Shown: positions 45,537 through 46,951 of the stretch, one piece after another
Position numbering within the stretch: position 1 is the stretch's first letter
Layout of the letters: every line of letters starts with the position of its first letter
Source: an uncultured Lachnospiraceae bacterium
GTDB taxonomy: Bacteria > Bacillota > Clostridia > Lachnospirales > Lachnospiraceae
Direction: 5' to 3'
Assembly (NCBI GenBank): GCA_947629565.1
Contig: CANREG010000010.1
Coordinates: 1-58,116 of the forward strand
Length of the DNA: 58,116 nt
Made by a program: the position numbers and the translations under genes
Notes under the pieces: model-generated
The model's input: the letters and a program-made list of their open reading frames with translations, nothing else
Database searches by the model: none
What the model was told of the DNA's origin: nothing

Positions 45537-45584
45537 ATGCTTAGACAGGGCAGTTGATTTTATGAAGGAAAGGCGGTGTTGTAT

Positions 45585-45818
45585 ATGTCAGTATTGCAGG
45601 ATCAGGTTCTCCAAAAAGTTAAAGGACTTTCAGAAGATAATCTACAGTTTTTGCTAGAGATGATAGATCGTTTTATGCAACCCGAAGTTAAAGAAAACAA
45701 GAATATGGTAATCACAAAGAGAATTGGGATTGCCAGAGGGCAGAACTTATATGATGACGATTATGATTTTGACGAGATGAACCCTGAAATTGCTAAAATG
45801 TTTGGAGTGGTGGAATGA
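45585..45818 (+). CDS. Antitoxin partner of the PIN toxin
   Basis: A 77-residue acidic protein directly upstream of a PIN toxin, overlapping it by four bases, the standard antitoxin arrangement. The N-terminal half (LQKVKGLSEDNLQFLLEMID) is helical, as in DUF2281-like or Phd-like antitoxins; the C-terminal half (YDDDYDFDEMNPEIAKMFG) is acidic and likely disordered until it wraps the toxin. The ATG at 45585 follows AAAGGCGG at the right distance. The exact antitoxin family is not certain. Confidence 0.75.
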   Translation: MSVLQDQVLQKVKGLSEDNLQFLLEMIDRFMQPEVKENKNMVITKRIGIARGQNLYDDDYDFDEMNPEIAKMFGVVE

Positions 45819-46219
45819 AGCTGTTATTAGATACGCATATTATTTTATGGGCATTGGATGACAACCCCAAATTGTCGGAACCGGCGAAAGCTTTGATTAT
45901 GGATGCGAATAATGATGTTTATTATAGTGCTGCCGCTGTGTGGGAGACGACAATAAAATATATGGCAAAGCCAGATAAAATTCGGCTCAGTGGTTCTAAA
46001 TTGTCAGAATTGTGCAGGCAAATGGGATATCAGATGCTACCGATTACAGATAAGCATGTAGAGGTACTGGAAACGCTGGTATTCCATAGTGAGCATCAGG
46101 AGCATAATGATCCCTTTGACCGGATTATGATTGCTCAGGCGAAAGCCGATGGAATGAAGTTTGTTACACATGATTTTAAGATTCCATTTTATAATGAATC
46201 CTGTGTAATAGCAGTATAA
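45815..46219 (+). CDS. vapC: PIN-domain toxin (VapC-like ribonuclease)
   Basis: A 134-residue PIN-domain protein, a predicted Mg2+-dependent endoribonuclease toxin. The acidic active site is visible as Asp6 in LLLDTHIILWAL, the glutamate in AAAVWETTIK (about residue 44), and the aspartates in HNDPFDRIMIAQA and FVTHD near the C-terminus. The length and motif order are those of the PIN toxins usually paired with DUF2281- or Phd-type antitoxins. The ATG overlaps the antitoxin stop (ATGA). Confidence 0.92.
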   Translation: MKLLLDTHIILWALDDNPKLSEPAKALIMDANNDVYYSAAAVWETTIKYMAKPDKIRLSGSKLSELCRQMGYQMLPITDKHVEVLETLVFHSEHQEHNDPFDRIMIAQAKADGMKFVTHDFKIPFYNESCVIAV

Positions 46220-46223
46220 AAGT

Positions 46224-46280
46224 AAACGGTAATAAGATTGTTGTTCTGCTTGATATAATCTTTTCCAACAAACAAATATT
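46224..46280 (+). pseudogene. Fragment duplicating the N-terminal coding part of the gene at 46694
   Basis: About 57 bases starting AAACGGTAATAAGATTGTTG are nearly identical to 46723-46780, which encode NGNKIVVLPDIIFSNKQN of the small gene downstream. This copy has no start codon or ribosome binding site and continues for only a few more codons. It begins five bases after the vapC stop and lies on the other side of the type I toxin-like locus, forming a direct repeat around it. Confidence 0.8.
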
Positions 46281-46304
46281 TGAAAAAGGAAAAATTAAAG
46301 CAGA

Positions 46305-46333
46305 TTGACAGAAAAGCAATCCACTGATAGAAT
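46305..46333 (+). promoter_or_regulatory. Promoter of the 25-codon small ORF
   Basis: TTGACA (46305-46310), a 17-base spacer and TAGAAT (46328-46333). Start near 46340. The first transcribed bases form a hairpin (TGTCC at 46339-46343, GGACA at 46350-46354). Confidence 0.8.
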
Positions 46334-46357
46334 AAAACTGTCCTTTATGGGACAAGG

Positions 46358-46556
46358 AGGCGCTGCATAGCGGCAGGCGGTTGGCTGATATCCCTCGAAA
46401 GGGGGTGAGGCTTATGCGAATTACGTTACATATCGGTAAATTTACCGTTACGATAATTGTAAAGAGCAACAACCGCCACTCGGCTAAGTGAACGGTTGTT
46501 TAGATAAGTAATTATTTAACTTCTTGCACAGAAGCCAACCGCTTGTCGCAGCGCTT
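46358..46556. repeat. Inverted repeat bracketing the small ORF
   Basis: AGGCGCTGC (46358-46366) and GCGGTTGGCT (46377-46386) in the 5' leader are complementary to GCAGCGC(TT) (46548-46556) and AGCCAACCGC (46533-46542) after the ORF. The ends of a full-length mRNA could therefore pair with each other, as in translationally inert type I toxin mRNAs. Confidence 0.75.
46414..46491 (+). CDS. 25-residue peptide, candidate type I toxin
   Basis: The peptide begins MRITLHIGKFTVTIIVKSNN and ends RHSAK. A short amphipathic, beta-prone hydrophobic stretch is followed by a basic tail. A very strong ribosome binding site (AAAGGGGGTGA, 46398-46407) lies six bases before the ATG and may be masked by pairing with CCCTC just upstream. 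The gene has a consensus-like promoter, a 5' hairpin, long-range complementarity between leader and 3' region, and a convergent consensus promoter downstream. I believe similar small ORFs occur in other Clostridia, but cannot check. No family name is assigned; a toxin role is inference from the architecture. Confidence 0.6.
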   Translation: MRITLHIGKFTVTIIVKSNNRHSAK

Positions 46557-46563
46557 CTTTATG
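46460..46563 (-). ncRNA. Predicted antisense RNA overlapping the small ORF 3' half
   Basis: A perfect consensus promoter on the minus strand (next entry) would start an RNA near 46563 running leftwards over the 3' region and last two thirds of the small ORF. It would end at a hairpin in which AACAACCG pairs with CGGTTGTT and CACT with AGTG (46468-46500), followed on the minus strand by GCTCTTT. The RNA would be about 100 bases and fully complementary to the small-ORF mRNA, the layout of a type I antitoxin. Confidence 0.6.
46526..46561 (+). terminator. Probable terminator of the small-ORF mRNA
   Basis: AGAAGC pairs with GCTTCT, with an inner CGC/GCG stretch and loop TTGTC, followed by TTAT. 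It ends where the convergent antisense RNA would begin. Confidence 0.5.
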
Positions 46564-46569
46564 TCTATA

Positions 46570-46598
46570 ATTATAAGCAGGAATCGGTTAAATGTCAA
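46570..46598 (-). promoter_or_regulatory. Consensus minus-strand promoter of the antisense RNA
   Basis: On the minus strand TTGACA (46598-46593), exactly 17 bases, TATAAT (46575-46570). Both hexamers are perfect consensus. No minus-strand open reading frame with a ribosome binding site follows it, which supports a non-coding product. Confidence 0.85.
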
Positions 46599-46636
46599 CT
46601 CCAACTTCATTGAATGTCGAAAGTTTGTATTGATGC

Positions 46637-46693: not shown

Positions 46694-46873
46694 ATGGGAA
46701 CACTGGAAATTCTATTGGATGAAAACGGTAATAAGATTGTTGTTTTGCCTGATATAATCTTTTCCAACAAACAGAATATTGACTGGAATGAGGTGGGGAA
46801 TTATAATATTTATTCCGGTTGTCTGGTGGATATAAAAAAAGAAGCGAGTAACCCACTCAGGACTAACGGGTAG
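46694..46873 (+). pseudogene. Internally deleted small nuclease-like (MuF-C/PBECR-type) gene
   Basis: The 59-residue open frame starts MGTLEILLDENGNKIVVLPD and ends DIKKEASNPLRTNG. As I recall it, both ends match a family of about 170-residue stand-alone proteins from mobile elements related to PBECR/MuF-C nucleases, with the middle missing: the N-terminal part stops at IDWNEV and jumps to NYNIYSGCLV, then again to DIKKEASNPL. Promoter, ribosome binding site and terminator are intact, so the deletions look recent. It is listed as a remnant; a genuine short gene cannot be excluded. The family identification is from memory. Confidence 0.5.
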
Positions 46874-46901
46874 TCAAGTGGTACAAAACCGCTTCTCTTT
46901 G
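46841..46901 (+). terminator. Three-tier hairpin overlapping the end of the remnant gene
   Basis: GAAGCG pairs with CGCTTC, CCACT with AGTGG and GACTA with TAGTC, nested around ACGGG, then TCTTTG. The 5' arm encodes the KEASNP part of the product and the stop codon lies in the inner stem, so coding sequence and terminator share bases. Confidence 0.75.
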
Positions 46902-46951
46902 ATTAAAAGAATATCACCAGATGGAAGGAATGTCAATCTTTTTTATAGTCT

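Follow-up and report, generated by a model that had tools for sequence, protein, structure and literature searches.

A probable new family of type I toxin-antitoxin-like loci in gut Clostridia, built on a known RNA scaffold

The locus and its genomic setting

The window, by which we mean the whole 58,116-nucleotide stretch of Lachnospiraceae DNA analysed here, contains a small open reading frame (ORF) with two promoters that face each other and a set of complementary segments. All elements of the locus lie within 300 bases:

46305..46333, plus strand: promoter of the candidate toxin mRNA, TTGACA (46305-46310), 17-nt spacer, TAGAAT (46328-46333), read from the sequence
46340..46353, plus strand: hairpin at the mRNA 5' end, GTCCTTTATGGGAC, with GTCC/GGAC, from sequence and RNA folding
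46340..46563, plus strand: predicted toxin mRNA, about 224 nt, its ends placed by the promoter position and by a conserved 3' helix that leads into a T-rich run
46357..46386, plus strand: leader, forming the 5' arm of a long-distance helix, from pairing across relatives
46392..46405, plus strand: local hairpin CCCTC-GAAA-GGGGG that holds the Shine-Dalgarno sequence, from pairing across relatives
46414..46491, plus strand: 25-codon ORF with an ATG start, MRITLHIGKFTVTIIVKSNNRHSAK, under purifying selection among 387 relatives
46468..46501, minus strand: hairpin over the last codons and the stop, followed on the minus strand by GCTCTTTA and read as the antisense RNA terminator from its pairing, wobble bias and low pS; the window copy has an imperfect T run
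46533..46557, plus strand: 3' arm of the long-distance helix, from complementarity and pairing across relatives
46570..46598, minus strand: promoter of the antisense RNA, a perfect TTGACA-17-TATAAT (TTGACA at plus-strand positions 46598-46593, TATAAT at 46575-46570)
46460..46563, minus strand: predicted antisense RNA, about 104 nt, its ends placed by the positions of the promoter and hairpin, both of which are retained in relics

In the ORF list for the window, the 25-codon frame appears solely with its start at an upstream TTG (46381); we use instead the ATG at 46414, which is conserved among relatives and is preceded by a strong Shine-Dalgarno (SD) sequence, GGGGGTGA. The minus-strand promoter is the sole perfect TTGACA-17-TATAAT found when both strands of the window are scanned, and the antisense RNA predicted from it would be complementary to the end of the ORF and to the 3' part of the mRNA. 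The inverted repeat of 46370-46386 and 46533-46549 is 17 nt long and 88% complementary, and it reaches about 46357-46386 and 46533-46557 once relatives are aligned. Folding of the plus-strand RNA at 46335-46575 gives an energy of -92.6 kcal/mol (z -7.0), which none of 200 dinucleotide shuffles equalled. An earlier note on this DNA had pointed out the 25-codon ORF, both promoters, the inverted repeat and the hairpins, and all of them are present where it placed them.

The window comes from a 2.6-Mb assembly (G000). A DNA search matched four of 60 genomes: this one, a second genome of the same genus (G020), and two (G051 and G053) in which the matches are short stretches that proved to be Hol_Tox-like loci. 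The pattern of leader and SD occurs in 5 of 299 family genomes, again with the window's own included, and gave no control matches. In one scan of species genome contigs, a peptide profile recognised 387 relatives among 479 pattern-matched stretches. Of the best 80 of these 387, most carry the labels Lachnospiraceae, Oscillospiraceae or Oscillibacter; Clostridium, Roseburia, Blautia, Dysosmobacter and unplaced bacteria account for some others, and a single Gastranaerophilales label may be a binning error. Isolates with copies include Oscillibacter sp. MSJ-31, O. valericigenes An907 and Clostridium porci. On viral contigs, a relative is encoded in 12 of 42 pattern-matched stretches; the phages collection gave no match, and the plasmids collection gave one record, from Vescimonas fastidiosa, at three places, with no gene beneath the match in its incomplete gene table.

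No neighbour recurs beside the locus. The 121 flanking ORFs nearest to it fall into 112 Pfam families, none of them common to more than three, and no defence gene recurs among the listed neighbour families; the nearest neighbours lie on both strands and up to about 1.2 kb away. Whereas a short ORF and alternative RNA structures near genes would suit a cis-regulatory leader peptide or attenuator of a neighbouring gene, this variety of neighbours, strands and distances makes such a function exceedingly improbable.

Several further features surround the window copy. Directly upstream, 45576-46219 encodes a PIN-domain protein (Pfam E 1.1e-13) with a small overlapping ORF before it, a pair that resembles a type II toxin-antitoxin system. 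A 60-nt direct repeat (90%) lies on either side of the locus, at 46224-46283 and 46723-46782; the second copy falls within a small ORF and is the only one in the aligned stretch of the decayed G020 site. On the minus strand, 46831-46936 forms a second sRNA-like unit, with TTGACA-17-TATTCT, a stem closed by GAAGCG/CGCTTC and seven T, which is also present in G020 (L008).

Conservation of the peptide, the promoters and the RNA structure

We tabulated 97 loci, 92 of them with full flanks, and retained 72 after dropping those with at least 90% identity over 300 nt. Five of the 72 have ORFs of other lengths and were left out of the selection analysis; for the 67 ORFs of exactly 25 amino acids, pN/pS from pooled pairwise counts, which are not tree-corrected, is 0.161 over the whole ORF, 0.109 in codons 2-16 and 0.416 in codons 17-25. 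These ratios show purifying selection on the peptide, and the value for codons 2-16 provides the conservation against non-synonymous change on which the earlier note had made its reading depend. The drop of pS from 0.617 to 0.246 in codons 17-25 is as expected, because the RNA hairpin overlaps those codons. In 66 of the 67 loci, a GG[AG]GG motif lies within the 22 nt that precede the ATG. This motif and the low pN/pS of codons 2-16, which lie outside the helices tested for covariation, argue that the ORF is not incidental and make it very improbable that the family is a selfish repeat or an RNA-only element, even though its patchy distribution, tandem copies and strongly conserved RNA structure are of the kind that such an element would have.

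The peptide has no match in NCBIfam, Pfam or PHROGs, as the earlier note anticipated in finding no type I family to name for it; the window peptide reaches no Pfam family at E 10, Hol_Tox (PF16935) included, and does not match NCBIfam PepG1. Its letters are also absent from the PMC full-text library, the scope of which leaves out subscription papers, supplements and databases such as T1TAdb. Judged by family libraries and a non-exhaustive literature search, the family appears to be undescribed.

For comparison we used 58 Hol_Tox-like peptides, a set in which at least one is mis-sorted. The 41 distinct peptides of the window family have a larger moment at 170 degrees over residues 2-8 (0.86 versus 0.23), a lower mean best 17-residue KD hydropathy (0.94 versus 2.31) and a higher net charge (+5.2 versus +1.6). 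By these sequence measures, the peptide is weakly hydrophobic, cationic and patterned like an amphipathic beta strand; the beta reading comes from the periodicity only, because the Chou-Fasman beta means of the two sets are nearly equal (1.26 and 1.23). Excerpts of one source describe an alpha-helical transmembrane domain in membrane-associated type I toxins, and a legend there also marks some beta-sheet (PMC8309996). As far as hydropathy and periodicity indicate, our peptide has no such transmembrane domain and differs from the known membrane type I toxins in lacking a hydrophobic helix.

The antisense promoter scores at least 11.5 of 12.5 in 63 of the 72 loci and is perfect in 31, with a mean of 11.81 as against 8.36 in simple shuffles; within a fixed range of positions, it falls below 10 in six. 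Loss of this promoter from homologues would have spoken against the earlier note's reading, and most homologues retain it. The toxin promoter, with its -35 element starting 89-127 nt before the ATG, reaches at least 10 of 12.5 in 51 of the 72 and stays below that in 21 (mean 10.19 versus 7.92 in shuffles). The antisense promoter has the higher score in 57 loci, an equal score in eight and the lower score in seven, and at a cut-off of 10 it occurs alone in 18 loci and the toxin promoter alone in three (McNemar p 0.0015). Of those three, L047 is the G132:C48 case described below, L087 has its promoter outside the range tested, and L092 is a real exception, in which the toxin promoter is present and the ORF extended but a good antisense promoter is missing. 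Neither promoter reaches 10 in L026, L065 and L078, the last of which has an intact ORF of 25 codons.

In the antisense stretch behind the minus-strand promoter, no stop-closed ORF exists at 35 of 67 loci, and those at the other loci are at most 21 amino acids long, ORFs that run out of the stretch being left out of this count; no closed ORF is conserved there in the 67 loci. The locus thus has the parts expected of a type I pair: a small conserved ORF that is subject to purifying selection and has a promoter of its own and a strong SD, and a promoter that faces the mRNA with no conserved closed ORF behind it, from which an antisense transcript is predicted.

The RNA structure was assessed on an alignment of 67 loci (A4). 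The RNAalifold prediction contains the outer long-distance helix, the stop hairpin and short local helices within codons 2-16; in it, the inner 3' arm has the SD region and not the leader as its partner. The structure in which the leader is paired accounts for 93.9% of 2608 cells, with double changes in 27 of 39 pairs; slid versions of it pair 31-50%, and none of 500 shuffles reaches the observed value on any of five measures, a result that is supportive and not a p value, since the alignment shuffles ignore relatedness. Long-distance helices 1 and 2 have 91.1% and 92.9% of cells paired (double changes in 19 of 25 pairs), the SD hairpin (helix 3, three pairs) 93.0% and the stop-codon hairpin 98.1%. 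The helix between the leader and the 3' end is kept by compensatory changes. The alternative, in which the 3' arm pairs with the SD, is weaker: 84.7% of cells are paired, and double changes occur in 3 of 10 pairs, a count reached by 115 of 500 shuffles; in percentage paired, cells changed and covariation score, none of the 500 is as high. This pairing may be a transient state. Many relatives, inspected by eye, have a 5'-end hairpin of other sequence at the same place. A search of Rfam gave seven matches (E 0.55-7.3), all under the gathering scores.

The two classes of helix differ in their wobble pairs. With two near-invariant G-U column pairs omitted, we count 96 G-U and 29 A-C in the long-distance helices as against 2 G-U and 10 A-C in the stop hairpin, the latter a small count that coding constraint and relatedness could bias. 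A G-U pair holds only in the plus-strand RNA, and an A-C pair in the plus strand is a G-U pair in the minus strand; the changes in the stop hairpin therefore fit pairing of the minus strand. This pattern suggests that selection acts on the long-distance helix in the mRNA and on the stop hairpin in the antisense RNA, where it would serve as a terminator.

Solitary antisense genes and a scaffold shared with Hol_Tox-like loci

Separate models of the toxin half and the antisense half were run on the same 397 family genomes with a cut of 50 bits; this set shares some genomes with the 72 loci, and the two are not independent. Above the cut lie 34 antisense halves and 26 toxin halves. Ten of the 34 lack a toxin half above 50 bits, and five of these have a deletion of the ORF or of its start, with antisense promoters that score 12.5 (G071:C52), 11.5 (G000:C24), 12.5 (G130:C35), 12.5 (G132:C26) and 12.5 (the second unit of G132:C48). 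The retained part begins within about codons 8-13 in G071:C52, G000:C24 and G130:C35, relics that keep the antisense promoter and hairpin together, and remnants of the toxin promoter or leader are retained in G071:C52 and G132:C26. Other antisense-only loci have lost the leader, SD and ATG (G315:C29), are frameshifted (G102:C5) or have an open toxin ORF behind a replaced leader (G130:C65); at G130:C27 the ORF is open and its ATG kept, the leader is replaced, the SD is lost and the antisense promoter scores only 9. G130:C41 is antisense-only by the cut-off, its ORF being intact but divergent (toxin half 42.4 bits).

The second copy in the window's genome, G000:C24, has lost the promoter, leader and first part of the ORF and keeps everything from the hairpin to the antisense promoter, and G020 carries an intact copy at that site. 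In G020, the site that corresponds to the window's copy no longer has the ORF; what remains there is the antisense promoter and the 5' half, 97% identical.

The reverse arrangement is rare. Two of the 26 toxin halves lack an antisense half: G317:C82 is cut by a contig end, and G157:C5 has its start codon and ORF destroyed. Across the 397 genomes, every toxin half that exceeds 50 bits and has an intact ORF is accompanied by its antisense half, the one cut by the contig end excepted; below 50 bits, the toxin half of G102:C30 (42.8 bits) is truncated and has no antisense. At G132:C48 (L268), an intact toxin has a decayed antisense promoter, and a solo antisense unit with a perfect promoter lies directly downstream. 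Relics often keep the antisense gene after the toxin ORF is lost, a toxin-first decay.

A covariance model built from A4 alone (R1) matches 40 of 246 order genomes (E 0.01) and 45 of 397 family genomes (E 0.001), the window's own included in both, and many of these matches encode hydrophobic Hol_Tox-like peptides and not the window peptide. Across 49 Hol_Tox-like matches, 94.0% of cells are paired and double changes occur in 31 of 39 pairs, in an alignment that is fitted to the model and has letters for the stop hairpin in only about eight rows. Two of the Hol_Tox-like peptides compared with Pfam Hol_Tox gave E 0.032 and 1.3e-4 (14.5 and 22.2 bits, cut-off 23.3). The Hol_Tox (PF16935) / PepG1-TxpA-like type I loci of Firmicutes have the same scaffold as the window family, with a GCGGTTGG leader, a GAAAGGGGGTGA ribosome site, the same 3' arm AACCGCTT and a facing minus-strand promoter, a likeness that the earlier note had missed. 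Their peptides are hydrophobic, whereas those of the window family are cationic with beta-type periodicity. TxpA itself presumably belongs to the Hol_Tox/PepG1-like kind. Six weak protein matches (E 0.19-1.6) were set aside; five were inspected by eye, and none of these five shows such a scaffold.

Proposed mechanism and related systems

The best explanation of the locus, and one that we hold to be quite probable, is a type I toxin-antitoxin-like module, as the earlier note had proposed; the conserved ORF and the retained minus-strand promoter support it. The relatives probably make up a type I-like toxin family that is new and widespread and uses a known RNA scaffold; both transcripts, the antisense repression, the toxicity and the target of the peptide are predictions. 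We propose that a weak-to-moderate plus-strand promoter would give the mRNA of about 224 nt that encodes the 25-residue cationic peptide, with the SD of this mRNA held in a local hairpin and the leader paired with the mRNA's own 3' end. The usually stronger facing promoter would give a non-coding RNA, about 104 nt long, whose start coincides with the end of the mRNA and whose terminator is the last-codon hairpin; its pairing with the mRNA would cover the 3' part, the last stretch of the ORF included. This antisense RNA would block translation, trigger decay of the mRNA, or both, and the peptide, probably growth-inhibiting, would be produced only once the antisense RNA had been lost or outrun. 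An activation step in which loss of the 3' end releases the SD finds no support in folding, the mean unpaired probability of the SD being 0.085 at full length and 0.062 when truncated (66 loci).

It is also conceivable, though we think it unlikely, that the antisense-controlled peptide is not toxic and acts as a small regulator or membrane-surface peptide that is silent until needed. The anatomy is silent on toxicity, this peptide is unlike a typical type I toxin, and G130:C27, L078 and L092 combine an open ORF with a poor antisense promoter. An addiction-type module is nevertheless a better fit than a cellular regulator to the loss of the toxin ORF with retention of the antisense gene, and likewise to the patchy, neighbour-free distribution; moreover, the same scaffold elsewhere carries holin-like peptides.

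Should the toxin-antitoxin reading hold, gut Clostridia would carry a common antisense-controlled toxin family that is missing from NCBIfam, Pfam and PHROGs, and the pattern by which membrane type I toxins are transmembrane helices would be broken. Type I RNA scaffolds could then exchange their toxin, and the solitary antisense genes would supply natural material for anti-addiction tests.

Several described systems offer parallels. In AapA/IsoA of Helicobacter and in hok/Sok, excerpts of the source describe toxin mRNAs with a 5'-3' long-distance helix (LDI) and SD hairpins (PMC6733600), features that the window family would have in common with them by description. The predicted double lock on translation, a local SD hairpin combined with a long-distance helix, resembles the aapA3 LDI model as outlined there (PMC6733600). 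Unlike those systems, the window family has its antisense gene opposite the 3' part of the mRNA, with a presumed terminator hairpin encoded by the last codons of the toxin. Orphan antisense genes have a precedent in zor-orz of E. coli, where, in the portion of the source consulted, orz-only loci are given for over 30% of E. coli genomes (PMC11264685); peptide, RNA and phylum are different there, and orphan expression is shown there and predicted here. The CD2517.1-RCd8 type systems of C. difficile have, according to excerpts of their description, convergent and overlapping toxin and antisense genes in Clostridia, as the window family has, and toxins of 34-59 amino acids with a transmembrane domain (PMC6563280), whereas the window peptide has 25 amino acids and no plausible transmembrane domain.

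A broader proposal has a real but somewhat less than even chance of being right, and we offer it tentatively: that a single conserved RNA scaffold of Clostridia with two promoters carries swapped inserts, either Hol_Tox-like toxins with a transmembrane helix or a cationic, beta-hairpin-like peptide whose last codons double as the antisense terminator, that the latter would be a beta-based type I toxin family, and that solo antisense genes would neutralise incoming copies in an anti-addiction role.

Separately, the genome of the window itself has weak scaffold matches at G000:C38 (L118, E 0.046) and G000:C9 (L119, E 0.22), both with Hol_Tox-like hydrophobic peptides. At a further locus, L188 (G297:C14), both promoters on the scaffold score 11.5 and the ORF is replaced by an unrelated stretch.
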